A stretch of 40,109 bases of DNA from Nanoarchaeota archaeon (GTDB lineage: Archaea > EX4484-52 > LFW-46), in contig JAHILE010000010.1 in assembly GCA_018897155.1 (NCBI GenBank), forward strand, positions 1-40,109, given 5' to 3'. The position numbers and the translations under genes are program-made. Every line of letters starts with the position of its first letter. The first letter of the stretch is position 1. Below the pieces are notes generated by a model. That model made no database searches. It was given only the letters and a program-made list of their open reading frames with translations, and was not told the origin of the DNA. This document shows, piece after piece, positions 3,769 through 19,534 of this stretch.

Positions 3769-3909
3769 ATGCGCGATTTTGATAAAAAAGTATATCAAGA
3801 TACACTCATAATATTAGAGCATTACACCGGTAAAAAAATCACGAAAATCATTAAAGGCGGTTATTCGATATTCGGGCTTTTTCAGAAAAAAATGATATCT
3901 TGCAGATGA
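3769..3909 (+). CDS. 46-codon ORF upstream of cheC
   Basis: The ATG at 3769 opens 46 codons ending in TGA at 3907-3909. The product is basic, with segments ILEHYTGKK and GGYSIFGLF. It is in the same frame as the CheC-type gene, so a single TGA separates the two, and the CheC ATG follows 6 nt later. It could be a real small operon gene or a decayed N-terminal extension. I recognise no family. Confidence 0.3.
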   Translation: MRDFDKKVYQDTLIILEHYTGKKITKIIKGGYSIFGLFQKKMISCR

Positions 3910-3915
3910 TTGCTT

Positions 3916-4557
3916 ATGCCAAAAACATCAGAACTATCGCCTATTGAAAAAATGCTCCTTACAAAGCTGATGATTGACTGCTCGGGCGAAACTGCCCGGG
4001 CACTTTCCGAGATGATGAATAAAAAGGTTTCTACAGCAGCAGATTCTCCAAAAGTATTGCTTATAAATGATGTTCCCAAGCTCTTGAATTCCGAAGACCC
4101 TGCCATAACCCTGCTTTTTACAAGAATGTCAGGAGCGATAAAAGGAACAATAATATTGTCATCCACTGCTGATAATATACTGAAAACCGCAGATATCTTC
4201 CTTCACAAGCCTCTTGGCTATTTCAAGAATTTAAGCGATGAAAATGTGTCGGTGATCAAGGAACTCGCAAACATAATGGCCGGCTACTATATAACTGCCC
4301 TAAACCATATTCTTCACGCAACCTGCGATTCGTCAATGCCTGAATTGTCGATAAACCCGAGGCGCGCAATTGAGGACTTCGGGTTTGGGTCTGTATATAC
4401 CGAAGAGATCTTAGTGCTTGCGCTGAAAGCAAAATTCGAGATTGAAGGAGGCATAAAAGAAGATATCCTGCTGCTGTTCAGGAAAAACGACATAAAAAAG
4501 ATACTTGAGCGGCTTATAGTTAATACAAATATTGTTTCAAACATGCAGTTCGGATAA
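3916..4557 (+). CDS. CheC-type CheY-P phosphatase with one intact site
   Basis: A 213-residue protein of the CheC/CheX/FliY family, which dephosphorylates CheY-like receivers. CheC normally carries two S/D-x3-E-x2-N-x3-G sites. The second is perfect here: Ser112, Glu116, Asn119, Gly123 in VSVIKELANIMAGYY. The first (residues 13-24, MLLTKLMIDCSG) has Lys at the Glu position and Ile at the Asn position, so it should be inactive. A receiver gene (11531-11899) and a histidine kinase lie within 12 kb, but no CheA. The ATG at 3916 is chosen over TTG 3910. Confidence 0.75.
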   Translation: MPKTSELSPIEKMLLTKLMIDCSGETARALSEMMNKKVSTAADSPKVLLINDVPKLLNSEDPAITLLFTRMSGAIKGTIILSSTADNILKTADIFLHKPLGYFKNLSDENVSVIKELANIMAGYYITALNHILHATCDSSMPELSINPRRAIEDFGFGSVYTEEILVLALKAKFEIEGGIKEDILLLFRKNDIKKILERLIVNTNIVSNMQFG

Positions 4558-4568
4558 AAATTTAGTAT

Positions 4569-4673
4569 CCATAGACAGGCGGCTATGGTGCTCAAGGTGA
4601 CGCTCCCTACCTTATTGGGTGCTAATGACTGTAATGGAGGAAATTGAAACAGAAGGCACTTAATTCGCAAGTG
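4569..4673 (+). other. Spacer with three predicted hairpins
   Basis: Between the CheC-type and AbrB-like genes there are 184 bases without a gene. They contain CCATAG (4569-4574) with CTATGG (4583-4588), AAGGT (4594-4598) with ACCTT (4609-4613), and CACTT (4657-4661) with AAGTG (4669-4673). This could be a structured leader or small RNA. It matches no riboswitch that I recognise. Confidence 0.3.
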
Positions 4674-4741
4674 TTGTAAATGGCGGAAGATTACTTGCAG
4701 AAGTGGTATGGATTTAAATGTTTCAGGCAATCATTTAACTC

Positions 4742-5080
4742 ATGGCTGAGATAAAAAGCATGGATATGCATGACGGAAAGATAGAGATAAAGCTTTCCAT
4801 AAGCAATGACGAGTACCGGATACTAAAGCACCATATGAGCAATCTTACAATTTTTCCCTGTGAAAAGGATACTCTTACATACAGCCTTACTACGGGAAAG
4901 CTCGGAAACAGCAACAGAGTGATGCTTCCCAAGAAATTCCTTGAGTCGTTCAACATAAAGGAACTCGACAAAAAGGTGCCTTCAAACATATTTGTCCTGA
5001 ATGGCGACGCATACCTGCTAATAAAGATAAAAAGCTCTAAAGCAGGTATTCCGACTTTCAAGGAGGATGAATTGAAATGA
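4742..5080 (+). CDS. Protein with a C-terminal AbrB-like domain
   Basis: A 112-residue protein. The C-terminal half contains TGKLGNSNRVMLPKKFLES followed by a short strand pattern, resembling the SpoVT/AbrB swapped-hairpin fold (typically a basic, Pro-containing turn with DNA contacts). The N-terminal 45 residues (KIEIKLSISNDEYRILKHH) have no assignment. Its stop overlaps the start of the KaiC-like ATPase (ATGA), so the two are translationally coupled and probably work together as a DNA-binding or adaptor partner. The fold call is tentative. Confidence 0.5.
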   Translation: MAEIKSMDMHDGKIEIKLSISNDEYRILKHHMSNLTIFPCEKDTLTYSLTTGKLGNSNRVMLPKKFLESFNIKELDKKVPSNIFVLNGDAYLLIKIKSSKAGIPTFKEDELK

Positions 5081-5751
5081 GAGTTGCAACAGGGCTAAAA
5101 AAGCTGGATGCTATGCTTTCCGGAGGGTTTCCTGAAAACTCTGTTATCCTGCTTTCCGGGGGACCGGGTACGGGAAAAACACTGGTCGCATTAAGATTTC
5201 TTCTTGAAGGCGCACGGCTTGGCGAAAAATGCTGCTATGTATCCCTTTGCGAAAAAAGGGAAGAGCTTCTGAAGGCAGCAGAGTCCGTAAAAAGCTTAAG
5301 CGATGCCAAAAAATACCTGGACAAAAACCTTGCCATAGAATACATAATGATGGGGCAAAGCAACATAGGCATGAAACGGTTCGTGGAGATCATGGCAAAC
5401 TATCCCAAGATAGACCGAATAGTAATTGACGATGTCAATAAGCTGCTCATGTTCTCCGAAAACGAAAAGTCCTACAGGGCATATCTCATAGAGCTCATAA
5501 ACAGCCTGAAATACGCAAAATCATCTCTCCTGCTATGCGAAACCAGAGACAGTGATGCCCTTGACGCCGGAGGGGATGAATCGTTTGAATGCGACGGAAT
5601 TATACAGCTTACGTTCTTGGACCTTGAAGAAAAACCTATGCGCGCACTGATTGTGCACAAGATGAGATACACCAACTTCGACGCAAAGGTGCCTCATGAA
5701 CTAAAGATTGACAACAACGATATCCGGCTGACAGAAACTAAGGTAATCTGA
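5077..5751 (+). CDS. KaiC-like RecA-superfamily ATPase
   Basis: A single-domain KaiC-type ATPase of 224 residues. It has the family opening RVATGLKKLDAMLSGGFP, Walker A GGPGTGKT (residues 28-35), an acidic SLCEKREE segment after strand 2 and Walker B IVIDD (115-119). Archaeal relatives include FlaH/ArlH and many solo KaiC-like proteins whose ATP-bound state acts as a molecular switch. There are no archaellum genes, so ArlH is unlikely. It lies in an operon-like run with the CheC-type and AbrB-like genes, and two P-loop-less relatives are 5 kb away. I infer a signalling switch. Confidence 0.85.
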   Translation: MRVATGLKKLDAMLSGGFPENSVILLSGGPGTGKTLVALRFLLEGARLGEKCCYVSLCEKREELLKAAESVKSLSDAKKYLDKNLAIEYIMMGQSNIGMKRFVEIMANYPKIDRIVIDDVNKLLMFSENEKSYRAYLIELINSLKYAKSSLLLCETRDSDALDAGGDESFECDGIIQLTFLDLEEKPMRALIVHKMRYTNFDAKVPHELKIDNNDIRLTETKVI

Positions 5752-5806
5752 CATTTCTGGAAATGATGCCGCTAAGGCCAGTAATATCCCTATGCAGAAG
5801 AGACTG

Positions 5807-5942: not shown

Positions 5943-7085
5943 TTATCTACTATGGAGAGATAACTTTTTAAATGCCGCATCAATGCGCCCTATGCCTTCG
6001 GCAATATCGCATTTATCGGCAACAAAGCTGAATCTTACGTGATTTTTGCAATCCTCGTGAAATACCCTGCCCGGCATTGTAAGCACTCCGGCGCCAAGGA
6101 AAAACTCGTATGCTTTTTCATCGCCTCCCAATTCTGCAACATTGGGAAAGATATAGAATGCGCCTTTAGGCTCTATAAATTGAAGCCCGAGCGATTTAAG
6201 CCCGCGGACCATCAGATTTCTTCTTTCTTCAAAGCGCTTTTTCACCATAACCGGAAATTCCGTGTCGTTCAGGGCTGCAAGAGCGGCTCTCTGGCACGGA
6301 TTTGCGGTGCAGGTGGAGATGCAAAGCTTGAGCTTCAGCATCTGGTTGATAATTTCCTTTTGTGTGTGAAGGTATCCGACGCGGTATCCGCACATGGCGT
6401 ATGTTTTTGAAAAGGAATTTACTGTGATGATGTTTTCGGGCCGGGCTGCGACAGAAGCAAGGGAATGGTGCTTTGCGCCGTATGTGAAATTTTCATAGAC
6501 TTCGTCGGCCAGAATTATGCCGGGAAATATCTCGGAGATTGCGCGGAGGGTTTTTTTGTCAAATACAGAGCCGGTCGGATTATGAGGCGTGTTTATCATA
6601 AGCATTTTTGTCTTTCCGGTTATCATTTGTTTCAGTTTTTCAAGGTCCGGGCAAAAATTATTCTTCTCTTCCAGAATAAGGCTGACCGGTTTTGCGCCGC
6701 AGAATTTTACCATCGAGGCGGCTATGGGATAACTTGGCTCAATTATGATAACTTCGTCACCCTTATTCACAAGCGAAAGGATTGAAAACGAAATTGCTTC
6801 GCTGGCGCCGCCGGTTACAAGAATTTCTTCCGGCGCTGCATTGATATAATTTTGCCCGCGCAGCTTTTCTGCGATTTTTTCCCGCAGTTCGGCGATGCCG
6901 CGCACCGGAGCGTAACGGTTGCCTCCGCCTTTGAGCGACTGAATATACGCGCTGACCACGGATTCGGGCGGCGCATCCTTCGGCTCGCCAAGGGAAAAAT
7001 CAACTGTATCTTTTCGGGCGGCGCCGAAGTAATTTGTGGCCTTTGAGAATGGCATCCTTTCTACAGCTTCGCTGAAATTAAACAT
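5943..7085 (-). CDS. PLP-dependent aminotransferase, class I/II
   Basis: A 380-residue fold-type I aminotransferase of the AspC family. Visible elements are substrate-side GEPKDAPP near the N-terminus, TGGASEAI (91-98) for the phosphate, NTPHNPTG with Asn169, DEVYENF with Asp194 and Tyr197, the PLP lysine Lys227 in SFSKTYAMCGYRVGY, and a C-terminal substrate arginine in NHVRFSF. The acceptor specificity (aspartate, aromatic or other) cannot be read by eye. It diverges from the gene at 7128, sharing a compact double promoter. Confidence 0.9.
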   Translation of the reverse strand: MFNFSEAVERMPFSKATNYFGAARKDTVDFSLGEPKDAPPESVVSAYIQSLKGGGNRYAPVRGIAELREKIAEKLRGQNYINAAPEEILVTGGASEAISFSILSLVNKGDEVIIIEPSYPIAASMVKFCGAKPVSLILEEKNNFCPDLEKLKQMITGKTKMLMINTPHNPTGSVFDKKTLRAISEIFPGIILADEVYENFTYGAKHHSLASVAARPENIITVNSFSKTYAMCGYRVGYLHTQKEIINQMLKLKLCISTCTANPCQRAALAALNDTEFPVMVKKRFEERRNLMVRGLKSLGLQFIEPKGAFYIFPNVAELGGDEKAYEFFLGAGVLTMPGRVFHEDCKNHVRFSFVADKCDIAEGIGRIDAAFKKLSLHSR

Positions 7086-7127: not shown

Positions 7128-8159
7128 ATGAGGCTTTCTGAGTCGCTGAGGCGAGGGATATTGAAAAGTTCTGTTGGCGCACTTATAAATAAATTCAAAG
7201 TAAAAAGCAGGCGCACGGTGTTATTCTTCGAGGAAATTCTGGCAAACTATATAAAAGCATGTGAAGACGCCAGCTATGCGGAAAACTTTGAAAAAATCGG
7301 AGAAAGATGGTGTATTCTAGGAACAAAGGAACTTACTCCGCCGCCAATTAAAAAACTCCCTTTATCGCTGTTCTTCAAAATAATGAAAATGGTTTGGACA
7401 ACAATCGGAATACTTGATGATCTCTCATTCAAGAGAGATGGAAACATTATTATTCTTAAAGCGAAAGGAAATACAATAACAAGAACTATCGGCAGGAGCA
7501 ATTTCATGATTGGTTGCTTCGCAGGTGTTCTGAAAGCAATGTTATCGTGTAATATCAAATGCATCCGCGCCGTGCAGGACAAAAATGCCGGCGAGGAATA
7601 TGTATTTGAAATAGGTGCGCCAAAGCAGTTTTGTGCCGGCTCCAAGGAAAAGGAGACATATGACATGTTAAACGGCTCTAAAGGATTGGACGGGTTATCG
7701 CTCGCAGAAGCCATCAGGAAAAAAATATTCCAAGTCAAAGGAAACCGAATATTCTTTAGGGGGACGTCACTATGCAACTCTGAAAACACTCTGTTTCACA
7801 TACTCGGCGAAGAAAATATCATGCCAGAAGCAATACCTGAACTATCGTATAAATATTTCAGCAAACTTATCGAAAGCGACGCATCGGCGCCTAAAAAACT
7901 CACTTTGCTCAAGAATCTGCTGCAAATAATGGGGTGGGGAAGAATTGCAATAATTCAACGCGGCAAAAACATTATTATCAACGCACATAATCCGCCTTAT
8001 GGGCTACAGGCAGAAAAAGACAATTGGAATTTCATAGGAGGGACTATCCTCGGATACCTCTGGCTGATACGCAGAGATTTTAAGATGGTGTCTGTAAAAG
8101 AACGGCCAAGACATCTTATGATAACTTACAAGTATGGGAACTATGACAGCCGGAAATAA
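7128..8159 (+). CDS. Tandem V4R-like (4-vinyl reductase-like) protein
   Basis: A 343-residue soluble protein built of two similar halves. Both contain a helical run, a GNIIIL/GKNIIIN strand, a glycine-rich helix (NFMIGCFAGVLKAML at 125-139; NFIGGTILGYLWLI at 301-314), then a basic segment and a final strand pair (EEYVFEIG at 156-163; HLMITYKYG at 329-337). This pattern resembles the V4R/XylR-N small-molecule-binding fold, but the conserved metal or ligand cysteines are not obvious. It may be a sensor for the nearby signalling genes; that is inference from context. Confidence 0.4.
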   Translation: MRLSESLRRGILKSSVGALINKFKVKSRRTVLFFEEILANYIKACEDASYAENFEKIGERWCILGTKELTPPPIKKLPLSLFFKIMKMVWTTIGILDDLSFKRDGNIIILKAKGNTITRTIGRSNFMIGCFAGVLKAMLSCNIKCIRAVQDKNAGEEYVFEIGAPKQFCAGSKEKETYDMLNGSKGLDGLSLAEAIRKKIFQVKGNRIFFRGTSLCNSENTLFHILGEENIMPEAIPELSYKYFSKLIESDASAPKKLTLLKNLLQIMGWGRIAIIQRGKNIIINAHNPPYGLQAEKDNWNFIGGTILGYLWLIRRDFKMVSVKERPRHLMITYKYGNYDSRK

Positions 8160-8184: not shown

Positions 8185-9069
8185 TTATATCAGCAACCAT
8201 GCGGTCAGAAAAACAAAAGATAGGCTGCCAAAAAAATGGGCGCGCCGAGCATTGTCGCGGTGCATAAGTAGGAGCGTAATTGCTGAAAAAGGTAGCATAA
8301 CCGTAAGCTTCGGCAAAGCCGCCAATATCAGAACGAAGTAGGCAACAAGCAGCGATAATATCAGCGCCTTTGCAGCGGCATATCCAAAGCAAACCGGCAC
8401 AGTCCTTATTCCTGCCGCCTTATCGCCCTTATAGTCCCTTATATCAGATATCATGCTTAGAATCATAATAAAAAAAGAAAGCGCTACATAGTATAAAACA
8501 GCTTCGAATGTGAGTGATGTGGCTGCAGCACCGATTAAAAATGCCTGCATAACACCAAATCCTGTGTATATGTTCTTTATGAAGAGATATTTCTTGATCC
8601 TTAGATATGAATAAACAATGCCGGATGCTGCGGAACTTATGTAAAACATGAAAGAAGCAGATGATAAATGGGCAGATAGTATACCACCCAATAGCAGAGC
8701 CGCGACGGATATCACCTTTCCCTCAAAAACAGACGTAAACGGATTTTCAGATTTTCCGTTAGCAGCATCCTCTTTTTTGTCAGTTATATTGTTGAACGAA
8801 TATGTGCCGGCGCAGACTAAGAATGCCGATAGAATAACAAATATCATCTTCCCAGACGGCAGATTAAACATAAGATATCCGCTTAACGCCATAAAGGCGC
8901 AAAAAATACAAAGATTTATCCGCAGATACTTCAAAAGATGCGCGATACTTCCGTTTAGCAACCTAATCACATCCTTACTTGAAGCTGCCGTCACCGCCAA
9001 CCGATATTTTTTCCGCATTCCTGAAAACCCATTAATAGCCATCAGCAAACGACCCTCACAATCTCCCAT
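8185..9069 (-). CDS. UbiA-family prenyltransferase
   Basis: A 294-residue integral membrane protein with about eight hydrophobic segments. It carries both Mg-diphosphate motifs of the UbiA superfamily: NNITDKKED (93-101) and SDIRDYKGDKAAG (208-220). Archaeal members include digeranylgeranylglyceryl phosphate synthase, which adds the second lipid chain of ether lipids, and quinone or other aromatic prenyltransferases. I cannot separate these here. Its ATG abuts the stop codon of the upstream synthase gene (TGAATG), so the two are translationally coupled, which is an odd pairing. Confidence 0.85.
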   Translation of the reverse strand: MGDCEGRLLMAINGFSGMRKKYRLAVTAASSKDVIRLLNGSIAHLLKYLRINLCIFCAFMALSGYLMFNLPSGKMIFVILSAFLVCAGTYSFNNITDKKEDAANGKSENPFTSVFEGKVISVAALLLGGILSAHLSSASFMFYISSAASGIVYSYLRIKKYLFIKNIYTGFGVMQAFLIGAAATSLTFEAVLYYVALSFFIMILSMISDIRDYKGDKAAGIRTVPVCFGYAAAKALILSLLVAYFVLILAALPKLTVMLPFSAITLLLMHRDNARRAHFFGSLSFVFLTAWLLI

Positions 9070-10191
9070 TCACGCCAACACCCTCCTGCATTTAATCTCC
9101 GAAACAATCGTTTCAATTTCTTCATCCGACAATGAATCTCTCTTGCGTTCGTATGCCTCCTTTATAGCTTTTAAGACAATCTCCGCATCTTCGGGAGCTA
9201 TTTCATCTCCGCACTTTTCGCGAAGAACGTGTTCAATTCCTTTTCTTCCGCTATGCTTTCCGATACAAATCTTTCTTTTTTGCCCCACATCTTCGGGATT
9301 CAGGAACTCATAAGTTTTCGGATTCTTAAGAATCCCGTCAACATGTATGCCGGACTCATGCGCGAACGCATTTTCGCCCACAAGCGGCTTGTGCTTCTGA
9401 AGGCGTATTCCCGATAGTTCCTGAACCGTGCCGCATATTTCCTTCAGCATATTGAACTTTACATTCACCTCCATCCCGCAAAGATAATGCAGCGCAGTGC
9501 ACACCTCCTCAATCGGGGCATTTCCTGCCCGCTCGCCTATCCCGGTAAAAGTTCCTGAAAAGCAGTCGGCTCCTGCAAGTATTCCTTCGACAGTGTTCGC
9601 AGTCGCCATGCCGAAATCGTTGTGGAAATGAATCGCGACCTCGCATCTGGCGCTGTTCCTGACATACCACACAAGCTTTCTTGCTGATTCCGGAGTAAGG
9701 CATCCCACTGTATCCGCGATGAAAAACATGGCAATTTTGCCGTGAATCTCTTTAAGAAACTGCTTCAGATATGCCATGTCCGCCCTTGTGGCATCCTCTC
9801 CTGCAAAATCCACGGCAATTCCGTGCGAGCGCGCATAATCAATCATTTCGCAGGAATTCCTGATATTTTCATCGCGCGTTATTTTCAGCTTCTGGGCAAT
9901 GTGCAAATCCGAGAGCGGCGAGAACAAAGTGATTCTTTCGGCGCCTGCATTGATTGCCGCATCAATATCAGGCTTCTTAGCCCTGGAGGTGGCAGAAACC
10001 CTGTTGCCGAACATGCGCGTAAGCTCTTTTGTTGCCCTGAACTCTGTTTCGGAAACCGCCGGCATTATATCTATCAGGTCTGCGCCGAAATCCATTATTT
10101 TTTCCGCCATCCGGATTTTTTCGCCAAACCCGAACACAACGCCGGGCATCTGCTCGCCGTCGCGAAGCGTTGTGTCGTGTATCTTTACGAT
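9070..10191 (-). CDS. Homocitrate/isopropylmalate/citramalate synthase family enzyme
   Basis: A DRE-TIM metallolyase that condenses acetyl-CoA with an oxo-acid. The essential opening motif HDTTLRDGEQ is present, as are the metal site HFHND, GIGERAGNA and HESGIHVDG. At about 373 residues it lacks the C-terminal leucine-binding regulatory domain of LeuA, so it resembles AksA/NifV-type homocitrate synthases; substrate assignment is not safe. The motif lies upstream of the first ATG (10149) and no ATG, GTG or TTG occurs in frame before it. An AGGTGG ribosome-binding site sits 7 nt before an ATC codon at 10191, which I take as the likeliest start. A sequencing error is the alternative. Confidence 0.85.
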   Translation of the reverse strand: MVKIHDTTLRDGEQMPGVVFGFGEKIRMAEKIMDFGADLIDIMPAVSETEFRATKELTRMFGNRVSATSRAKKPDIDAAINAGAERITLFSPLSDLHIAQKLKITRDENIRNSCEMIDYARSHGIAVDFAGEDATRADMAYLKQFLKEIHGKIAMFFIADTVGCLTPESARKLVWYVRNSARCEVAIHFHNDFGMATANTVEGILAGADCFSGTFTGIGERAGNAPIEEVCTALHYLCGMEVNVKFNMLKEICGTVQELSGIRLQKHKPLVGENAFAHESGIHVDGILKNPKTYEFLNPEDVGQKRKICIGKHSGRKGIEHVLREKCGDEIAPEDAEIVLKAIKEAYERKRDSLSDEEIETIVSEIKCRRVLA

Positions 10192-10321: not shown

Positions 10322-10864
10322 ATGAACATGCTTGAAGATGTCTCTGAAAGTAAATTTCTGTTGATAGTGCTTTCTGAAGAGCAATACATGAAACAGATAT
10401 ACGAAATAGTCATGTCCATCAAACAGACAAAGAACAAAGTCTGCTATGTGTGCATCAGCAAGCCGTACGGCGATGTTGTTGAAGACCTGAAAAAGAACGG
10501 CATTGACACAAAAGCCTTTGTATTTATCGATGTCTTAAGCAGCCACTATGAAAAGCCGCGGCCAATAAAAAACTGCATATTTCTTGATTCCCCGGACCTG
10601 GATTCCATAAAGCGCGCAATAGATGGAGCCATAGCACAAGAAGCCTGCAGTGTCTTGCTTTTTGATACCCTGTCCGCGATGCTTATATACCAGGAAAGCT
10701 TTCCGGTTCTCAGGTTCGCCCACAGCATGACAATGGGAAAAAATCAGGAAAACGTAAAGAAGGTGTTCCTCGTTCTTAAAAAAGGAAATGGTATTGAAAA
10801 AGAGAACGCTTCACTGATAAGCGACCTGAAGATGTTTGCGGACAAAACGCTAGAGATATGTTAG
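10322..10864 (+). CDS. P-loop-less RecA/KaiC-like protein, paralog 1
   Basis: A 180-residue protein with the strand order of a KaiC-type core but no Walker A: after strand 1 (FLLIVLSEEQ) there is no GxxxxGKT. Recognisable parts are VCYVCISKPYGDVVEDLKKNG, FIDVLSSHY, a Walker B-like strand SVLLFDTLSAML and the terminal DLKMFADKTLEI. About half the residues match the next gene, including FIDVLSSHY, FLDSP and MFADK. Similar P-loop-less KaiC relatives in archaea (for example DUF835- and DUF7504-type proteins) have no established function. I infer an ATP-independent signalling partner. Confidence 0.6.
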   Translation: MNMLEDVSESKFLLIVLSEEQYMKQIYEIVMSIKQTKNKVCYVCISKPYGDVVEDLKKNGIDTKAFVFIDVLSSHYEKPRPIKNCIFLDSPDLDSIKRAIDGAIAQEACSVLLFDTLSAMLIYQESFPVLRFAHSMTMGKNQENVKKVFLVLKKGNGIEKENASLISDLKMFADKTLEIC

Positions 10865-10918: not shown

Positions 10919-11482
10919 ATGAGCCTAAAAAAGGATATTGAAAAAAGCAAGTTCCTTGTTTTTCTGCTTGATGAGGACCATCACATTGACGAAGTTGTTG
11001 AGGTGACAAAGTCCCTTAAAAACAAGGATTCCAAAATCTGCTACGTGTGCCTGAGCAGAACATTTGATGACGTTTGCGGCGACTTCGAAAAAAAGGGGAT
11101 GGACCTAAAAAGGTTCTATTTCATAGATGTCCTGAGTTCGCATTACGGCAAAAAGAAGAACGAAAAAAACTGCCTGTTTCTTGATTCGCCGACAAACATT
11201 CAGGAAATAAAGCGCACGATACTAACCGTGCTGAAGGAAAAGAAATGCAACACCCTGATACTGGACACAATATCCGCAATGCTTGTTTATCATGACGCAA
11301 GAAACATAGAGCAATTCACCAATGATATCCTTTTGGAAGAGCAGAACAAAGAAAAGATCATTTACATGGCGTTCAAGCATAACCTTTGCACTCTGCCTCA
11401 TGAGAACGAAATGCTGATAAATGACCTCAACATGTTCGCAGACAAGATGATTGACATATCGCTAAAAAAAGCCAGTAAATAG
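10919..11482 (+). CDS. P-loop-less RecA/KaiC-like protein, paralog 2
   Basis: A 187-residue paralog of the preceding gene. It shares KICYVCLSR, a FEKKGMDLKRFYFIDVLSS block, NCLFLDSP, IKRTILTVL, a Walker B-like LILDTISAMLVYH and the closing LINDLNMFADKMIDI. It also lacks a Walker A. The high conservation around the LDT-SAML strand and the C-terminal helix suggests that those surfaces matter. It is followed 33 nt later by a CheY-like gene in the same direction, so a link to phospho-signalling is likely but unproven. Confidence 0.6.
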   Translation: MSLKKDIEKSKFLVFLLDEDHHIDEVVEVTKSLKNKDSKICYVCLSRTFDDVCGDFEKKGMDLKRFYFIDVLSSHYGKKKNEKNCLFLDSPTNIQEIKRTILTVLKEKKCNTLILDTISAMLVYHDARNIEQFTNDILLEEQNKEKIIYMAFKHNLCTLPHENEMLINDLNMFADKMIDISLKKASK

Positions 11483-11530
11483 GCAAAATGTTTTTAATGG
11501 ATTAAATCAAAAATAATGGAGGAAGAAAAA

Positions 11531-11899: not shown

Positions 11900-12110
11900 A
11901 TACGCGCTTTATATGGTATTTTTTATAAAGGGGGATAATCTTTTTTTCTGCAGCTTCATCGCCCATTAATTTCTGCATAAAGAAAAAACATTCGTCAAGA
12001 AACTCTTTCGGGTATTTTTCCGGAGCATCAAAAGTTCCGACAACAAGTTCTGCAGAATCTGCTCCCAAAACATCGCCAATTCCCGCCAGCACATCGTCCT
12101 TAAGCCCCAT
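11889..12110 (-). CDS. Small signalling-island protein, paralog A
   Basis: About 73 residues from the ATG at 12110 (a TTG at 12134 would add eight). It is clearly paralogous to the gene at 13264-13491: both have MxLKxD at the start, a FDxPxKYPxxFLxEC block, then GxExAEKK and PLYKKY at the end. No cysteine pair, metal site or DNA-binding motif stands out. It follows a membrane protein gene, as does its paralog. I do not recognise the family. It is probably a helical cytosolic adaptor. Confidence 0.6.
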   Translation of the reverse strand: MGLKDDVLAGIGDVLGADSAELVVGTFDAPEKYPKEFLDECFFFMQKLMGDEAAEKKIIPLYKKYHIKRVFSQ

Positions 12111-12153
12111 TAAAACCACAACATCAACATCCAAACATTACTCTTTCAAATAA

Positions 12154-12258
12154 TCAATATATCTCTTCTGAATGCATCCGACACATTATCAAGCCAACGA
12201 TTCCAAGCACATACCGATGAATGAAGAATCCTGCAGCATTGCCCGGCAGTTCTGTTTA
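12154..12258 (-). other. In-frame ORF continuing past the stop of the 7TM-like gene
   Basis: After the TAA of the membrane protein (12256-12258) the same frame stays open for 33 codons to TGA at 12154-12156. It encodes AAGFFIHRYVLGIVGLIMC, which would make one more membrane helix. This may be a decayed 3' end, a readthrough extension or chance. Confidence 0.25.
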
Positions 12259-13029
12259 TTTCACATCAAGCAAATCCTTTGTATAGTACATTCCTGCGCC
12301 TATTGTGAAGAATGCCAGAGAAAATAAAATATCCACCCAATTGCCCGTATAATATGTGCCCGCCGAAGTAGTCCATGAGAATGAAAAATCAGCCATAGAC
12401 TGTATGATGAATCCCGCGCATATTATCGAAATCGGCTTAAACATCTTTCCTCCGCGGATTAATGTCAATAAAACAATCGTAAACGACAAAAACACGGCAT
12501 CGCCAACAGGATAAAACACGTTCAATGCCTTTTCAATGCCGGATACATTTTCAACAAGCTTTGACTGGATAAATAGAATATAAGTGACTGCGAAAACCGC
12601 AACAGGAATTACCGCCAGTTTTATGATTGTTCCGGCATCAAACGAATTCTTTATGCTTTTCAAAAGCCAGAAAAGCCCCCACGAAGCAGAAAGCACGGTC
12701 CCGACAAACAAAGCATCTGCTATTGAAGGATATGGAACTTCAAGTTTCATCGCGATGTTGTAATACAGCCATGTGAGCGCGCCAAAGCCCCAAAAAAGAA
12801 GCCCAATCGAGATAAATAAAAGAGATTTTCCGAGCGCGCTTCCAAACGAAAACGCCTTTGCCTGCTTAATTCCTATTGCTGCAGCAAATGCAATTATGAG
12901 AAACTGCCCGACATCTGTGATAAAATACCTTAAATCCGAAGGGGCTCCCTTAGACGGCTCAAGAGCCATTCCCGCAATAGCGAGCGCGCTTATCAGCACG
13001 AATCCTAAAAATAATTTAGCAGATGCCAT
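12256..13029 (-). CDS. Multi-spanning membrane protein, probable sensor
   Basis: About 257 residues with seven or eight hydrophobic segments and short loops. The segment LEVPYPSIADALFVG resembles the P-x-PS-x-AD signature seen in the membrane sensing regions of many bacterial diguanylate cyclases and kinases, but no output domain is attached. Translation most likely starts at ATG 13029 (TTG 13041 is possible); a TATA element TTTATATATG lies around 13061-13070. It is followed by the small paralog A gene. I infer a membrane receptor working through a separate partner. Confidence 0.55.
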   Translation of the reverse strand: MASAKLFLGFVLISALAIAGMALEPSKGAPSDLRYFITDVGQFLIIAFAAAIGIKQAKAFSFGSALGKSLLFISIGLLFWGFGALTWLYYNIAMKLEVPYPSIADALFVGTVLSASWGLFWLLKSIKNSFDAGTIIKLAVIPVAVFAVTYILFIQSKLVENVSGIEKALNVFYPVGDAVFLSFTIVLLTLIRGGKMFKPISIICAGFIIQSMADFSFSWTTSAGTYYTGNWVDILFSLAFFTIGAGMYYTKDLLDVK

Positions 13030-13067
13030 AGCTACCCACAATACTTAATATTCATGAAGGCATATAT

Positions 13068-13263: not shown

Positions 13264-13491
13264 CTACTGATGGGCTTTCATATATTTTTTATATAAGGGC
13301 CCGAACTTTTTTTCCGCGCTCTCCTGACCTATAATATCCCCCAGAAAGTGCGTACACTCCTCCAGAAAGTCCGCAGGATATTTTCTAGGATCATCAAAAA
13401 GATACACTTGCTTGGCTACAAGTTCCCCGCCAATTTCTTCAATTATTTTTTTAGCATCCTCTTTCAGCGCCATATTAATCATTTCATCCAT
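13264..13491 (-). CDS. Small signalling-island protein, paralog B
   Basis: A 75-residue protein, the partner of paralog A. After a variable N-terminus (MDEMINMALKEDAKK) it has FDDPRKYPADFLEEC, then GQESAEKKFGPLYKKY. The conserved cysteine, the KYP-x2-FL block and the PLYKKY tail are kept while the rest diverges, so both copies are under selection. It starts 10 bp after the stop of a signal-peptide membrane protein. Function unknown; the neighbours suggest a soluble component of a membrane-sensor module. Confidence 0.65.
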   Translation of the reverse strand: MDEMINMALKEDAKKIIEEIGGELVAKQVYLFDDPRKYPADFLEECTHFLGDIIGQESAEKKFGPLYKKYMKAHQ

Positions 13492-13501: not shown

Positions 13502-13909
13502 TCAATGTTTTTTGAGGGCGCCGCTAATCAATTTTTTGCGCCCGGCGTACATAGAATATCCCGCATATGCAAATATCAAGAGTGCTACTGTCCTTAAATT
13601 ATCCTCGATTTGCACTGACAGCTCGGATGAATCTCCTATGCCTGCAATGTAGAAGATGAAGCAGGTAATTGACGCTATCCCTATCAGAATGATACCCGCG
13701 GCATACAGCTTCATAGTGCTTCCTATCATCCCCCCGAATGCCTTGACACCCGTGTATGCTGCGACAAACGCGGCTATAAACCCTATGAAGCCTATGCTCC
13801 ACTCCAAATATTCCGGCTCGCTTAATTCTCCGGCTTCCTCGGCGAGAACAGGCGCAACAAGGGCAAACAAAAATACTGCTGACAATAAAAGTATTTCTAG
13901 TTTTTTCAT
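13502..13909 (-). CDS. Small membrane protein with signal peptide
   Basis: From ATG 13909 the protein is 135 residues. It begins with a cleavable-looking signal (MKKLEILLLSAVFLFALVAP, then VLAEEAGE), followed by three membrane helices (GFIGFIAAFVAAYTG; YAAGIILIGIASITCFIFYI; VALLIFAYAGYSMYAG) and a short basic tail. A palindromic TATA element GTATATATAC at 13931-13940 is 25 bp upstream, which predicts a leaderless mRNA and argues against longer starts. It is paired with small paralog B. No family recognised. Confidence 0.6.
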   Translation of the reverse strand: MKKLEILLLSAVFLFALVAPVLAEEAGELSEPEYLEWSIGFIGFIAAFVAAYTGVKAFGGMIGSTMKLYAAGIILIGIASITCFIFYIAGIGDSSELSVQIEDNLRTVALLIFAYAGYSMYAGRKKLISGALKKH

Positions 13910-13930
13910 ATGCAATATATTGCAGAGGTA

Positions 13931-13940
13931 GTATATATAC
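13931..13940 (-). promoter_or_regulatory. TATA box for the small membrane protein
   Basis: GTATATATAC, a perfect palindrome, is centred about 26 bp before ATG 13909. It sets this start and gives the downstream pairs a promoter separate from that of the kinase. Confidence 0.5.
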
Positions 13941-13980
13941 ATATTATGCATATAGCCCTCATCATTTGGTCTGCCATCCC

Positions 13981-15612
13981 TCATTTTTCAGCAATCTTCT
14001 GAATGCCTCTTTTCAAAGAGCCTTTTGCCGGCAGCGTGAAGTGGAACTCGCTTCCTTTTTCATGCACGCTCTCGAACCATATCTTTCCGCCGAGCAGATC
14101 CACAAGCTCTTTGCACAGGGAGAGCCCGAGGCCCACTCCGCCCACACTCCTTGTATACGACGAATCAACCTGGTAAAACCTCGTGAATATCTTCTCCTGA
14201 TTCTTCCTTGCTATGCCTATGCCTGTATCCTTGACTATGAAGTGCAGGATGCCGTCTTCTCTTGATATTTTCACGGTTATTTTCCCCTTCTGAGTGTATT
14301 TGACCGAGTTGTTTATGAGGTTCATCAATATCTGCGTCAGGCGCTCGCGGTCAGTGGTGATTTTCGGCAGGTTTTTATCAATAATGTATTCGGACTCCAG
14401 CCCCTTGGCTTTTATCTGAACGTCCATTTCCGTGCGCACAGTGTCAATCACATCATTTATATCAACTTCGGAGAAGTCAAAGTTCATGGCATTGAGGTCA
14501 ATACGCGAAAGGTCAAGCACGTCGTTTACAAGCTTTGCAAGCCGCGTTGTCTCATGATCCATTATTTTAAGGTATTTATCCCTTTTTTCCGGATCATCCG
14601 CAACTTTTTTGTCCTGCAGAAGCTGTGAGAATCCGTGAATGGACGTCATCGGCGTTTTCAATTCATGCGCGGCAATTGACATGAATTCATTCTTTTTTAT
14701 GTCAGTCTCCTTCAGCTCATCCACACTTTCCGACAGCTTATCACGCGCCTCTGTAAGCGACTTGTTCAGCTCCTCTGTGTCATCCATCATGTTGAGAACC
14801 GCGTTCTTGGTTGTAGTCAGCTCATCCACTTTCTGGTTCAGCTCCTTTGTCTTCTCGGCAACTTCTTCCTTGAGAGTCTTGTTGAATGTTTCAATCTTTG
14901 CCTTGGATTCCTTAATGTCAGAAGCCATTTTGTTAAACGCGCCCGCCATTCTTTCGAATTCATCCCCTGTCCTGAGTTTCACTTTCACATCCAGATTGCC
15001 TGCGCTAATGCTATCTATGCCCGATGCCAGTTCCCCGATTGGCTGCGCTATCATTCTTCGGAACAGGAAAACGCCCGAAACTATTATTGACGCCGTTATA
15101 AGCGCCACGGCAATGCTGCTCATAAGATTCAGGCGGGCGAGTATGTTTTCGATATATTCCTTCTTGTATCCGACATGAAGATACCCTGCCACATAGGTCC
15201 CGTCCTTTAATGGCATCGTGGCTTCGATAATGGGCTGGTTTCCCATGTTCAGCTCCTTTGTGCTAAACGCATCATCCGGTTCTTCCTGGCTTTGGCGCAT
15301 CTCTTCAGGCACGCCTGTTAAAAATGTGTGCGCCGTAATTTTATTGTCGATGCCGTGAACAACAATGTACTCCACAAACCCTTTTTTTATTTCCTTTTCC
15401 TCGAATATTAAGGCAGTCACGGATGCATAATCCTTGTCCGCGGCGTATGGAAATATCTTCTTTTCCAGAATCTCAAGCCCTATCTTCTCTCGCGCAACCA
15501 GATTTTTCTCAAGCTCGCCCCGCACCAGCTCGGAGTTTAAAATAATGAGCATAGCTCCAGCTATTAAGATTAAAAAGGCAAAAACCAAAGACAGCTTATA
15601 TTGGAGTTTCAT
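13981..15612 (-). CDS. Membrane histidine kinase (Cache-HAMP-HisKA-HATPase)
   Basis: 543 residues. TM1 is at about 8-27, followed by an outside single-Cache-like region (28-160, with EYIVVHGIDNKI and GYLHVGYKK). TM2 is at 164-185, then HAMP (186-240), a coiled coil (240-305), HisKA with His316 in AAHELKTPMTSIHGFSQLL, and HATPase with the N box NLINNSVKYT (431-440), G1 DTGIGI (462-467) and G2 GGVGLGLSL (491-499). It autophosphorylates on ATP and should pass phosphate to a receiver; the only one in the window is the CheY-like protein. Its ATG overlaps the stop of the binding-protein gene (ATGA), so the two form a sensor unit. Confidence 0.95.
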   Translation of the reverse strand: MKLQYKLSLVFAFLILIAGAMLIILNSELVRGELEKNLVAREKIGLEILEKKIFPYAADKDYASVTALIFEEKEIKKGFVEYIVVHGIDNKITAHTFLTGVPEEMRQSQEEPDDAFSTKELNMGNQPIIEATMPLKDGTYVAGYLHVGYKKEYIENILARLNLMSSIAVALITASIIVSGVFLFRRMIAQPIGELASGIDSISAGNLDVKVKLRTGDEFERMAGAFNKMASDIKESKAKIETFNKTLKEEVAEKTKELNQKVDELTTTKNAVLNMMDDTEELNKSLTEARDKLSESVDELKETDIKKNEFMSIAAHELKTPMTSIHGFSQLLQDKKVADDPEKRDKYLKIMDHETTRLAKLVNDVLDLSRIDLNAMNFDFSEVDINDVIDTVRTEMDVQIKAKGLESEYIIDKNLPKITTDRERLTQILMNLINNSVKYTQKGKITVKISREDGILHFIVKDTGIGIARKNQEKIFTRFYQVDSSYTRSVGGVGLGLSLCKELVDLLGGKIWFESVHEKGSEFHFTLPAKGSLKRGIQKIAEK

Positions 15613-16871
15613 AAGGCATCACGTGGATCCCCCCACCCTACCCCCCCCCCCTCAAACAGCAAAAATCTCCCGCCGGCAAGGCGCGAAAAAAATATGCGGT
15701 CAAATGCCTGATGGTCTGCGGGCCCGTAATTCACTGGTATGCCTATGCCCACGCTGTAGTCCTCAAAAGATTCGAGTGTTTGGATAAGCTTTTCGCGGCT
15801 CAAATCCCTGCCTGCGGCATCCAGGGCGCGCACAAGAAGCTTGGCATTTACAAAACCTTCAAGCCCTGTGTAGGTGGGCGAATTGCCCGGGAAGTACTTT
15901 GCAGTAAGGTCCCTGTAATCCTTGACTATTTTTAAGTGAATCGCAGATACCTCGTACGGGTCAGAAACCACCTGCGTAACGATTATCTTATCCGAAGAAT
16001 TTATCCCGCGCTTTGACAGCTCTTCGGCAAATGCGTCAGATCCCACAAAAGACACCGAGTGGAAGTACGGGTCCTGCCCTTCTTTTTTATAAAGAGCCAC
16101 GAACTTTGCAATCGGAGCATAAGTGCCTATCATGATAACTGCATCCGGGTTCGAATTCATTATTGTCTCAACGCCTGCCTCCACGTTCTCGGTCCCTCTT
16201 GCATACGACGCTTTGGCGGCAAGCGACATGCTGCGTTTGCTTAAGGCGATTTCTGTTCCCTTCAGCCCGGTCATGCCGAATGCGTCGTCCTGATAAAACA
16301 CAGCTATTTTCTTTAAGCCGAGATTATCGGCAAAGTAAGCAACTGCGGCTTCTGTCTCGTCATAGTATGATGCCCTGACATTGAATATGTACTTGCGAAA
16401 GGGGGTTCTCAGCTCCTCTGCCCCGGTGAACAGCCCGAGAAGCGGAATTTTTGCCTCGTCAACCATATCGATTATCCTGACGCTTGTCGGAGTTCCCACA
16501 TAATCGAACAGCATGAAGACCTTGTCGTCTGCAATCAGCTTCTGGGTGTTTGCCACTGTTTTTGGCGGGTCGTACTCGTCGTCATAAGTTATCATGCGGA
16601 TTTTCCTGCCCTGAACGCCTCCTTTCTCATTTATATCGTTTATAAACGCCAGCGAGCCGCGCGTGTACTGGGTGCCAAGAAAGCTCGCATGCCCGCTTAA
16701 GGCAGACGAGGAGCCGATAAGGATTTCGGAATCCGTAATGCCGTTTGTATCTCCCGGATTCTGCGCCCCATCAATCTGCGCCGGGGCTTCCCCGCTTGTG
16801 TAATATATGTAGCCTCCGGTCAATGCAATCGCCAGTATTGCTGCTGCGATAATTAAGTACGTTTTATTCAT
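15609..16871 (-). CDS. Branched-chain amino acid-type solute-binding protein (LivK-like)
   Basis: 420 residues: an N-terminal anchor or signal (YLIIAAAILAIALTGG), then a type I periplasmic binding fold. Typical signs are ILIGSSSALSGHASFLG, GGVQGRKIRMITYDDEYDP, NTQKLIADDKV, KKIAVFYQDDAFG and NPDAVIMIGTYAPIAKF. No permease or ABC ATPase gene is near. With its stop overlapping the kinase start, it probably delivers a ligand signal to that kinase and not to a transporter. The last 13 residues (GGGVGWGDPRDAL) are encoded by an 11-G run and look unlike the family, so the C-terminus may vary or be misread. Confidence 0.9.
   Translation of the reverse strand: MNKTYLIIAAAILAIALTGGYIYYTSGEAPAQIDGAQNPGDTNGITDSEILIGSSSALSGHASFLGTQYTRGSLAFINDINEKGGVQGRKIRMITYDDEYDPPKTVANTQKLIADDKVFMLFDYVGTPTSVRIIDMVDEAKIPLLGLFTGAEELRTPFRKYIFNVRASYYDETEAAVAYFADNLGLKKIAVFYQDDAFGMTGLKGTEIALSKRSMSLAAKASYARGTENVEAGVETIMNSNPDAVIMIGTYAPIAKFVALYKKEGQDPYFHSVSFVGSDAFAEELSKRGINSSDKIIVTQVVSDPYEVSAIHLKIVKDYRDLTAKYFPGNSPTYTGLEGFVNAKLLVRALDAAGRDLSREKLIQTLESFEDYSVGIGIPVNYGPADHQAFDRIFFSRLAGGRFLLFEGGGVGWGDPRDAL
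15641..15651. repeat. Homopolymer of 11 C (G on the coding strand)
   Basis: An 11-base run, followed by a six-C run at 15629-15634, lies about 30-40 bases before the binding-protein stop and the kinase start. One base fewer creates a TAG directly after the run; one more changes the tail and stops at a TGA upstream of the kinase ATG. It may be phase-variable or an assembly error. Confidence 0.8.
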
Positions 16872-16920: not shown

Positions 16921-16924
16921 GATA

Positions 16925-16945
16925 GAAATTGCCGTAGGCAATTTC
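16925..16945 (-). terminator. Intercistronic hairpin 1 (perfect 9-bp stem)
   Basis: GAAATTGCC (16925-16933), loop GTA, GGCAATTTC (16937-16945). It begins one base after the dCache sensor stop codon on the minus strand and is followed by TATCTTTTC. Archaeal termination usually needs only U-runs, so mRNA stabilisation is an alternative. Confidence 0.5.
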
Positions 16946-16946
16946 T

Positions 16947-18569
16947 TTATTTCTTCTCCTCCAGTTCCTTTATCCTTTTCTTCAATTCAATCATCTTCAG
17001 TTCCCTTCCGACAGCAATCTTGTTGAACCGCTCCATTTCTGCAACCTTTTCCTCGAGCTCTTTTGTTCTTTCAGCAACCTGCTTTTCCAGAGACGCGCCG
17101 TGCGCCTTCAGCTCTTTTGTCTTCTCTGCAACCTCTTTTTCCAGAGCAATATTGTAATTTTTCAATTCCTTTGTTTTCTCTGCAACTTCCTGCTCAAGCT
17201 CTTCTGTATGTTTTCCGAGCGCTCCGTGGGATTTCTTCAAATCTTCAGCCATGTTGTTGAACACTGCGGCAAGCACCCCCACTTCATTTTCAGACGCAAC
17301 ATCCGGCTTAACGTTGAAATTGCCCTTGGAGAGCTCCCTCGCTGCTTCTGTCAGGTTCTTTACCGGCCCAACAATCCTGCCGATAAGAAAAAAGCCGGCA
17401 GCCCATGCAATAACAAGAATCAATAAGCCTGTGGGCAAAATGCGGAAATAGGTCAGCTCGCGGACAGAATTCTTCAGCTCTTTGTCAATTGTTTTAACGG
17501 CTCCGAGCAGGACTTCCTCCTCGACAACTATACCCATGCTAAATTCGGTTCCCTTCAGGGGAGCATAAGCAATAAAGAGATTTTTATTGCCTGCTGTTAT
17601 ATTCTCAAAACCGGTCGAGCCCGCCTTCATTTTATTCAAAACAGAAGAAAATTTGCTGTTGGTAATATTGTTAAGATTTACCCGGGATTCCCCTCTGCCT
17701 CGTGCCCTGCCGACTATATCTGTGTACGCCTGTTCCGGAAGGGCAATGGAATATCCCTCTTTGTCAACAAGGAAGGAATAAGAGTCCTCTATCGGATTGT
17801 ATTCTTCAATATTCCCGATAATCTTGTTCAAAGTGACGTCAATGCCCAGGACCCCTATGAATCCGCCTTGCATGGCATAAACCGGCGCCACAGCCGATAT
17901 CATAAGCCCCTGCCCGGCAGGGTCGTCATATACCGGCGTCCATACGACTTTCTGCTCCGGATTGTTCTTGGGATTGGCAGACGTAAAGAAAATATCTTTT
18001 GTAGCCTCGAAATCCGGAGGCACGATGTTGCCCAGCCCTATATTCGGATAGTATCTTGATGTCTCGCGGGCGCCCACCATCCATATGGCAACTATGTTCT
18101 GGTCATTTTCAAGGACTTTCGGGAATGCGTAATCCAGATATGCGTTCAGTTCCAGTTCCTCTTTCACATCGCCGGTAATCGTGATCTGCCCAGGAACAAA
18201 GACCGATGACGTATCATTCGGCCCGTTGAGGTATTGCCCTCCGCTTCCGGTAAAGACGCGCTCGCCAAATTTCCAGTAGTTATCCCTTGAAAAGGCTTTG
18301 GGATTTTCAAATATATTTTTGGTATAATCCGCAAGGCTGCCTGCGTTTTTACGCACATTTTCAAAAACAAGGTCGTTCTTTTCGGCTGATGCTATAGTAA
18401 GCTGAACCAGAAAGCCCTCTGCCTGGCTGCGCAGGGAATCAGCCGCAATCTCCCGGGCATTGCTTCCGGCATCCATAATCGAGTTGATTCCTATATAGCC
18501 TGTGACAAATATTGACACAGTAGTCAGACCCAATAAAAAAACAAACATTTCTGTTTTAATGCTCTTCAT
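16947..18569 (-). CDS. dCache-HAMP sensor with coiled-coil tail, no output domain
   Basis: 540 residues. TM1 is at about 8-28 and is followed by a large double-Cache domain (about 40-365; strands such as IVAIWMVGARETSRYYP, VVWTPVYDD and GGFIGVLGIDVTLNKI are typical). TM2 is at about 375-400, then HAMP. The rest is coiled coil with three copies of a unit containing EKEVAEKTKELK. It ends in ERFNKIAVGRELKMIELKKR. There is no methyl-accepting hairpin, HisKA, HATPase or GGDEF domain. The same end is found in the neighbouring 4HB-HAMP protein. I infer that it signals by binding another protein through this tail. Confidence 0.85.
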   Translation of the reverse strand: MKSIKTEMFVFLLGLTTVSIFVTGYIGINSIMDAGSNAREIAADSLRSQAEGFLVQLTIASAEKNDLVFENVRKNAGSLADYTKNIFENPKAFSRDNYWKFGERVFTGSGGQYLNGPNDTSSVFVPGQITITGDVKEELELNAYLDYAFPKVLENDQNIVAIWMVGARETSRYYPNIGLGNIVPPDFEATKDIFFTSANPKNNPEQKVVWTPVYDDPAGQGLMISAVAPVYAMQGGFIGVLGIDVTLNKIIGNIEEYNPIEDSYSFLVDKEGYSIALPEQAYTDIVGRARGRGESRVNLNNITNSKFSSVLNKMKAGSTGFENITAGNKNLFIAYAPLKGTEFSMGIVVEEEVLLGAVKTIDKELKNSVRELTYFRILPTGLLILVIAWAAGFFLIGRIVGPVKNLTEAARELSKGNFNVKPDVASENEVGVLAAVFNNMAEDLKKSHGALGKHTEELEQEVAEKTKELKNYNIALEKEVAEKTKELKAHGASLEKQVAERTKELEEKVAEMERFNKIAVGRELKMIELKKRIKELEEKK

Positions 18570-18586
18570 ACGTTATCACTTCCCTA

Positions 18587-19534
18587 TCATCTTTTCATGC
18601 TTTCCAATTCATTTATCCTCTTTTTCAATTCAATCATCTTGAGCTCTCGCCCCACTGCAATCTTATTGAAGCGCTCAAGCTCTGCAACCTTTTCCTCGAG
18701 CTCTTTCTTCGATGCCTCAAGCTTTTTGTTTTTGATGGATATTTCCTCATCCCTTTTTGTGATATCCTCAACCATGCAGTTGAATGAATGAGTAAGCTTC
18801 CCTATCTCGTCATCAGAAGCCCCCTCCACTATTTTTTTGATGTTCCTATAGTCGCCGCTCATTTCTTCCGACGCCCTTGTCAGTTCTATCACAGGATCCG
18901 CGATTGAGTGGGCGAAGATAATGCCGCTTAGAATTGCCGAGATCATGGAAACGATGATAATTATCAAAATCGAAACCAACGACCTGTTTATCGTCGTATT
19001 GACGGCTTCGCCCCGATATTTTATTTCCTCTGACTTATGCTTCAGCGCAGAGTCCAGCGATACAAAAAGCTTTGCCCTGGCGTACTCAAGCGTTTCGCCG
19101 GCTTCTGCAATTTCGGTGTCCTTTGTCCCGCTGTTTTTCAGCAAAAACATTCTGTCCGAAGCGCCGATAAAAGCCGCGGCATTCTCTTTAATCTCATCCC
19201 TTGGCTCTCCATCTTCGAGAAAAGGCTCGCCGATAATGGCACGGTATGCCTCAACAGAACTTATGAATTCCGCTTTGCTTTGAATCCTTGCGGCATCCCC
19301 TATATATTCGCGGGTATTGTTGCGCGCCTGTGCAAAATCCATTGTTGCGGCAAAAACCTGCATTGCGGCAATTTTCGCGTCTTTAAGCAAATTAATTGCG
19401 GGAATGGTCTCATTTTCCAGGGATTTGATGCCGCTGTCAACATATTTCATACTCACAAAGCCGACATAGCCCACAATAACAGAAAATACAGAAAGCGCCA
19501 GAAATCCGGATACCAGTTTTTTGCTTAGGTTCAT
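18587..19534 (-). CDS. 4-helix-bundle HAMP sensor with the same coiled-coil tail
   Basis: 315 residues. TM1 (about 8-28) is followed by a helical outside domain of the 4HB_MCP type (about 30-185), TM2 (SILIIIIVSMISAILSGIIF), HAMP (about 210-262) and a coiled coil ending in ERFNKIAVGRELKMIELKKR. It has no MCP signalling domain or kinase. The tail is nearly identical in protein to that of the dCache sensor, yet the DNA differs at many third codon positions, so the match reflects selection and not recent copying. It is the first gene of the minus-strand run, with a good TATA element and a GGTGATG site upstream. Confidence 0.8.
   Translation of the reverse strand: MNLSKKLVSGFLALSVFSVIVGYVGFVSMKYVDSGIKSLENETIPAINLLKDAKIAAMQVFAATMDFAQARNNTREYIGDAARIQSKAEFISSVEAYRAIIGEPFLEDGEPRDEIKENAAAFIGASDRMFLLKNSGTKDTEIAEAGETLEYARAKLFVSLDSALKHKSEEIKYRGEAVNTTINRSLVSILIIIIVSMISAILSGIIFAHSIADPVIELTRASEEMSGDYRNIKKIVEGASDDEIGKLTHSFNCMVEDITKRDEEISIKNKKLEASKKELEEKVAELERFNKIAVGRELKMIELKKRINELESMKR

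Follow-up and report, generated by a model that had tools for sequence, protein, structure and literature searches.

A gene island joining a two-component pair, a CheC-type protein and P-loop-less relatives of KaiC on an archaeal contig

Gene content of the island

The window analysed here is the complete contig JAHILE010000010.1 (C10; 40,109 nucleotides) from assembly GCA_018897155.1 of a Nanoarchaeota archaeon (genome G000; 1.43 Mb, 62 contigs, 96% complete). Between positions 3,769 and 19,534 it holds an island of genes for a histidine kinase, a stand-alone receiver, a CheC-family protein, a KaiC-family ATPase and two KaiC relatives without a P-loop. A preliminary description of the sequence regarded these genes as one 16-kb set. 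Its CheC protein and its KaiC with a Walker A motif could be confirmed, and its AbrB-like protein weakly, but the set falls into two blocks: CheC-AbrB-KaiC and inactivated KaiC (iKaiC)-receiver-kinase. These are parted by metabolic genes, namely an aminotransferase (5943-7085), UbiA (8185-9069) and a LeuA-like gene (9070-10149), and by a gene referred to as u7128. The genes of the island are real and their products catalytically plausible. Comparisons cover 394 genomes, among which G001 is the sole relative of the same genus and 32 others belong to the same order. Genome-wide counts were taken from searches, and sequence stretches were read only around the matches.

The histidine kinase (13981-15612, minus strand) combines a weak sCache_3 match with HAMP, HisKA and HATPase_c domains, and residue inspection shows its H, N, G1 and G2 boxes to be intact. 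It had been described as a Cache kinase: the HAMP/HisKA/HATPase_c kinase stands, whereas the better Cache domain lies in a separate HAMP protein. The receiver (11516-11899, plus strand; PF00072, 97 bits) retains its phosphorylation residues (VVDDE, LLDMMMP, LTVA and ITKPF). By these H, N and G boxes and by the D, T and K of the receiver, the two proteins belong to the two-component family. Genome-wide searches found one receiver and one histidine kinase in G000, and likewise one of each in G001. A second HATPase_c match was rejected as a further histidine kinase, as it reads as topoisomerase VI-B. Because each is the sole protein of its kind found in both genomes, kinase and receiver are partners unless one was missed, and this uniqueness argues for phosphotransfer between them. 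The window receiver is 76% identical to that of locus L113, 74% to that of L112 (both from another phylum) and 72% to that of G001. Being equally close to another phylum and to its congener, the receiver sequence suggests either lateral transfer or strong constraint. For the kinase, identity to relatives is 42-59% across the aligned parts.

The P-loop-less KaiC pair

Directly upstream of the receiver lie PLL1 (10322-10864) and PLL2 (10919-11482), two P-loop-less KaiC-like proteins (PLLs) on the plus strand that are 41% identical to each other. Matches to Pfam are weak (KaiC/DUF835), but profile comparison with hhalign relates them to the KaiC alignment at E 7e-8. An AlphaFold2 model (pLDDT 85) has PH0284, KaiC and FlaH as its top PDB fold matches (E 2e-7 to 6e-6), so that the KaiC/RecA fold is predicted by model and profile alike. 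No Walker A motif (GxxGxGK[TS]) occurs in PLL1, PLL2 or the A3/A5 members. By sequence and model, PLL1 and PLL2 are thus inactivated KaiC proteins (iKaiC), having the predicted KaiC fold without Walker A; the earlier reading of a P-loop-less pair beside a lone receiver holds.

Relatives of the pair at E <= 1e-6 are present in 140 of the 394 genomes; among the lower-scoring of these are KaiC or ArlH-like proteins. In a tree the window pair groups with PLLs of G001, L113, G243, G286, G360 and G294 on one branch (SH-aLRT 100). The tree comes from a quick search, and the branching order within this clade is not settled. All eight clade members considered (8/8) adjoin a receiver or are fused to one. 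The receiver/kinase label requires five changes on the tree against 15.9 after shuffling (0 of 500 shuffles). The association is also visible in simple counts. In a first batch, consisting of 20 regions around the top-scoring PLLs that were fetched before their neighbours were inspected, a receiver gene lies within 5 kb of 6 of the 26 PLLs, where the numbers of receivers in the whole genomes lead one to expect 0.8 (Poisson P 2e-4). For both batches together this is 12 of 49 against 1.2 expected, but the choice of the second batch was not blind, as receivers were part of the reason for including G360 and G294. KaiC genes lie within 5 kb of 29 of the 49 PLLs.

Several PLL surroundings differ from that of the window. 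The complete genome G052 has five P-loop-less KaiC paralogues (L017 7999-10377, L018 3977-4636, L019 7430-8020, L020 and L021), some of which adjoin KaiC and a type IV pilus operon; no receiver is listed for this genome. This is a second context for the PLL family. At L152 (G107:C61) a P-loop-less KaiC has five successive receiver genes next to it, and the contig also encodes a u7128-like protein. At L022 8803-15332 (G041:C5) genes for KaiC and a small membrane protein face a PAS sensor, a histidine kinase, a receiver and another KaiC; the single receiver of the G041 genome is the one in this neighbourhood.

The AbrB-KaiC-u7128 unit and the CheC-type protein

In the first block a small AbrB/MazE-like protein (4742-5080, plus strand; weak PF04014 match) is encoded as the first gene of an AbrB-KaiC-u7128 unit. 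Its family is conserved over LTTGKLGNSNRVMLPKK, and orthologues precede KaiC in G001, L113 and G294. The KaiC-family ATPase (5077-5751, plus strand; PF06745, 127 bits) has an intact Walker A motif (GGPGTGKT); its gene overlaps the AbrB-like gene by 4 bp, and it is 82%, 58% and 63% identical to its orthologues in G001, L113 and G294, respectively. The gene u7128 (7128-8159, plus strand) encodes a 343-aa protein without a Pfam match, its family being unassigned. Orthologues in G001, L113 and G294 are 37-39% identical, and in four genomes, the window included, the gene comes after AbrB-KaiC. Membership in the V4R family was tried and not accepted, as the profile comparison is not significant; two TRAPP-like PDB matches at E 0.3 are a lead only, and a V4R/Bet3-like ligand sensor is possible. 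UbiA prenyltransferase adjoins the island not only in the window but also in G001 (L015 4663-5433) and G294 (L138 932-1726), at 34-40% identity; it is possibly co-transferred or a functional passenger.

The CheC-family protein (3910-4557, plus strand) matches PF04509 with 33 bits (cut-off 22) and aligns to Thermotoga maritima CheC (1xkr, E 2.4e-10), which places it in the CheC sequence family. It is a single-site protein: the second E-x-x-N site is retained (KELANIM) and the first is lost, as residue inspection finds throughout its clade. At the second site the window protein and one G001 copy have E/N and the other G001 copy has E/D. Phosphatase action of the window protein is plausible from these residues. 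In a tree the window protein, the orphan CheCs of G001 and the Aenigmatarchaeal proteins encoded as REC-CheC (REC, receiver domain) form one group (SH-aLRT 99), which does not include the CheCs encoded in the che operons of G006, G017 and G018 from the window's own order. CheC directly follows the receiver gene in SKW179 (L114) and G119 (L075). As the only receiver found within the 96% complete assembly, the 11516 receiver is the only possible phospho-substrate of the CheC protein.

Membrane, binding and sensor proteins

The small helical proteins with an FDxPxKYP motif (FDP), mentioned earlier, number two: FDP1 (13264-13491, minus strand) and FDP2 (11889-12134, minus strand; likely ATG start near 12110), the latter convergent with the receiver gene. 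FDP1 is a predicted four-helix protein (AlphaFold2 model, pLDDT 88), and no relative was found in the PDB by sequence or by fold. FDP occurs in 4 of the 394 genomes (G000, G119, G139 and G243). A scan of GTDB contigs gave four loci, all from Ca. Aenigmatarchaeota: L112 (AUK182, same contig as G243), L113 (LacPavin), L114 (SKW179) and L115 (DRTY-6, same contig as G119). At all five loci outside the window (L112, L113, L114, L115/L075 and L076) FDP adjoins a gene for a protein with multiple transmembrane (TM) segments. The 261-aa multi-TM protein of the window (12256-13041, minus strand) is such a conserved neighbour, with homologues beside FDP in L113, L114 and L075 (26-30% identity).

The open reading frame table further gives a small membrane protein (13502-13984, minus strand) whose gene has an ATGA overlap with the kinase gene; it has no significant Pfam match, and no relative was identified. 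On the other side of the kinase gene, with a 4-bp overlap, lies a solute-binding protein (15609-16871, minus strand; Peripla_BP_6, PF13458, 197 bits). It is followed by two transmembrane sensors without a kinase domain: one dCache+HAMP protein (16947-18569, minus strand) that ends in VGRELKMIELK, and one 4HB_MCP+HAMP protein (18587-19534, minus strand) with the same C-terminal tail and no MCPsignal domain. A binding protein with two HAMP sensors had indeed been anticipated. The tail VGREL[KR]M[IV][ED]LK closes all ten kinase-less sensors listed, two of which are those in the window; it is a candidate docking helix or contact to the kinase. A longer shared tail, ERFxKxxVGRELKMIELKK, is seen at the C-termini of both window sensors and on kinase-less sensors across genomes.

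Chemotaxis and archaellum components elsewhere in the genome

For CheA, CheW and the MCP domain, the earlier remark that chemotaxis genes are lacking can be extended from the island to the genome, where no CheA/CheW/MCP system was found: PF01584 (CheW) and PF00015 (MCPsignal) each have zero matches genome-wide in G000 and in G001. CheC proteins number one in G000 and two in G001. None of the annotated window proteins is a CheB, CheR or CheD, for which the genome beyond the window was not searched. The absence of an archaellum has been checked only partly: elsewhere in G000 there are three FlaI-like ATPases, all under the curated cut-off, and a cluster of KaiC, ArlJ-like and pilin genes.

Contig C28 of G000 (L065 8605-14811) carries a divergent cluster, with KaiC, V4R and two TM genes on one side and KaiC, two ArlJ-like halves and two pilins on the other. 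The cluster may encode a type IV pilus regulated by KaiC. Its orthologue in G001, with KaiC, V4R-like, ArlJ-like and pilin genes, lies on C30 (L043) and has both orphan CheC genes beside it; the C28 cluster of G000 is without CheC.

Recurrence in other archaea

Variants of the gene set recur in distant archaea, and therefore the island is not a local accident; its genes do not scatter independently, an outcome that the preliminary description had named as refuting its reading (the set is seen in L112/L113, G294, G286, G360 and L114/G119). Nor did the other outcome named there, a Che operon elsewhere in the genome that uses these genes, come to light, in that no CheA/CheW/MCP system was found. 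G001 is syntenic from KaiC to the sensor: its order on C18 is CBS, S15, AbrB, KaiC, u7128, UbiA, LeuA, a single PLL, the receiver, the kinase, a PAS sensor that bears the tail of the window sensors, and Bud32. L113 (Aenigmatarchaeota) has within approximately 15 kb KaiC, AbrB-KaiC-u7128 and PLL-REC-FDP-TM, and on the opposite strand a kinase, SBP_bac_3, two kinase-less sensors and a second PLL. Similarly, L112/G243 combines KaiC, PLL-REC-FDP, TM, kinase, two solute-binding proteins (one tested: SBP_bac_5), two sensors and a PLL. In L114 and G119 the arrangement is kinase-TM, FDP and REC-CheC. One 23.5 kb contig of G294 holds PLL, KaiC, AbrB-KaiC-u7128, an iKaiC-REC fusion (REC at residues 201-313), kinase, sensor and PLL.

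In G286 solute-binding/FIST proteins alternate with tail-bearing sensors and are followed by kinase, receiver and PLLs, and in G269 NMT1 proteins occur with sensors, histidine kinase, REC and PLL. The family of the binding protein varies by island (Peripla_BP_6, SBP_bac_3, SBP_bac_5, ABC_sub_bind/FIST, NMT1), whereas kinase, receiver and PLL are constant: the inputs are swappable on a fixed kinase-receiver-PLL core.

A proposed pathway and its alternatives

These patterns support the suggestion of a distinct sensory network with a KaiC-like switch or output, in which the role of iKaiC as output is one that we infer. We consider it fairly probable that the island encodes a two-component pathway complete in itself and connected to proteins of the KaiC family. 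The solute-binding protein and the two kinase-less HAMP receptors would modulate the 13981-15612 kinase together with its own sensor region, and the multi-TM proteins with their FDP partners may provide a further membrane input or an adaptor on the kinase. The kinase would phosphorylate the 11516-11899 receiver, whose phosphorylated state would be read by PLL1 and PLL2. These in turn may pair with a true KaiC ATPase and set its state, most likely in the AbrB-KaiC pair (4742-5751), and the AbrB-like protein of that pair would pass the output on to DNA. The CheC-type protein could act as a brake that resets or buffers receiver-phosphate.

A number of observations weigh against this pathway. The metabolic genes break up the island, and with a genome that is 96% complete a further kinase or receiver could be missing. 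Most PLLs outside the receiver clade adjoin KaiC or type IV pilus genes, without a receiver. The AbrB-like protein is weakly assigned, with 18 bits for PF04014 against a cut-off of 24.7 and weak matches in 3 of 4 orthologues. The G001 locus has no FDP, TM, solute-binding, CheC or second PLL gene, which leaves only part of the set as core. G119 has no PLL match, and its receiver must therefore have another output. The Aenigmatarchaeal CheC pair has Q/D instead of the catalytic E/N; phosphatase activity is therefore plausible only for the window protein and one G001 copy, and some members of the clade may bind a receiver but be inactive. What the sequences show is the gene content, the intact catalytic motifs of kinase and receiver, their uniqueness in the genome, the recurrence of the set, one iKaiC-receiver fusion and the adjacency of REC and CheC in two genomes. 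The steps that we infer from this are phosphotransfer, coupling of receptors to the kinase, binding to iKaiC, pairing of iKaiC with KaiC, the AbrB output and CheC activity.

The output is the least certain part of the pathway, and a pilus or archaellum-like output is its main rival. Here receiver-phosphate and iKaiC would act on the KaiC of the C28 cluster in G000, giving a motility or adhesion switch without CheA. That cluster has KaiC, two ArlJ-like halves and two pilins, both orphan CheC genes of G001 adjoin its orthologue, T2SSE/TadC genes of type IV pili lie within 5 kb of 10 of the 49 PLLs, and ArlH is itself a KaiC homologue (PMC8978795). Nonetheless we judge this output unlikely, as most of the pilus-adjacent PLLs belong to the opposite half of their tree, the receiver-linked islands contain no pilus genes, and archaellum family models stay under their cut-off in G000. 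It might also be argued that an ordinary two-component system came by chance to lie near unrelated KaiC genes, in a neighbourhood without functional meaning: approximately 40% of archaeal response regulators are stand-alone receivers (PMC5847659), KaiC genes are numerous in archaea, and the two blocks are parted by metabolic genes. Such a coincidence is improbable, given that the set recurs in other phyla, that iKaiC and REC are fused in one protein and that receiver-linked iKaiCs form a clade. Decayed chemotaxis, with CheC, receiver and HAMP receptors as what remains of a che operon after loss of CheA, CheW and MCP domains, would fit the presence of CheW and CheC in the order relatives G006, G017, G018 and G033 and the 4HB_MCP domain, which is typical of chemoreceptors. 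However, in the CheC tree the window protein stands with those of G001 and Aenigmatarchaeota and away from the che-operon CheCs of its order, the kinase is of the HisKA type and not CheA, and the receiver has its 74-76% identical counterparts (L112/L113) in another phylum, so that we regard decay as highly improbable.

Going beyond the pathway preferred above, one may picture a chemotaxis-like architecture without the Che kinase machinery. Interchangeable solute-binding proteins and tail-docking kinase-less HAMP receptors would feed a single histidine kinase of ordinary type and a single receiver. The signal would be buffered by FDP adaptors and by a CheC clade outside chemotaxis, and an iKaiC/KaiC/AbrB switch would form the end. 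Some minimal archaea would route all phospho-signalling through this island, which would move between phyla. This broader picture is tentative and we hold it to be rather doubtful as a whole.

Significance and relation to known systems

The island bears on the mode of action of archaeal receivers that have no output domain, and on the role of inactive KaiC proteins. A single receiver, a single kinase and members of a defined iKaiC clade repeatedly occur together, once with a fusion, and several such genomes have no other receiver. Because of this the partner of a stand-alone receiver becomes predictable by elimination. The results also point to a CheC lineage outside chemotaxis.

The concept of KaiC and iKaiC as archaeal signal transduction hubs (Makarova et al. 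2017, as cited in PMC5847659) and the iKaiC-REC fusions are already published. In Galperin et al. 2018 (PMC5847659) the archaeal regulators include iKaiC-REC (in Methanosarcinaceae), REC-DUF835 and MEDS-REC, and most REC-only regulators are in no conserved neighbourhood. Our literature search found no paper joining Aenigmatarchaeota, two-component systems and histidine kinases, and DPANN, KaiC and response regulators were found together only in PMC5847659. The composite island, the FDP family, the receiver-adjacent CheC clade outside chemotaxis and the genomes whose sole receiver lies in such an island appear to be new, with overlap possible with the neighbourhood lists of Makarova et al. 2017.

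Like chemotaxis systems with CheC (Thermotoga, Bacillus, Haloarchaea), the island has several transmembrane receptors, one kinase, a CheY-like receiver and a CheC-family protein. It differs in having no CheW or MCP domain, a HisKA kinase instead of CheA, and a CheC that has lost its first site and belongs to a separate clade. Histidine kinases assisted by a solute-binding protein are known from TorT-TorS and LuxP-LuxQ. As in those systems, a periplasmic-type binding protein is encoded with the kinase, with no ABC permease or ATPase gene adjacent; the island adds kinase-less HAMP receptors with a common tail, and its binding-protein family varies between islands. ArlH/FlaH and the stand-alone archaeal KaiC proteins share the KaiC fold with PLL1 and PLL2. 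ArlH binds ATP without hydrolysing it (PMC8978795), whereas PLL1 and PLL2 have no Walker A motif, and their link is with a receiver instead of an archaellum operon. A further likeness in build is to iKaiC-REC, REC-DUF835 and MEDS-REC, where a receiver is joined to a KaiC-fold domain without ATPase motifs, and G294 has the fused iKaiC-REC order itself. In the islands described here, however, receiver and iKaiC are for the most part encoded by two genes side by side, they occur in other lineages, and they are accompanied by FDP, multi-TM, solute-binding, kinase-less receptor, AbrB-KaiC and CheC partners.

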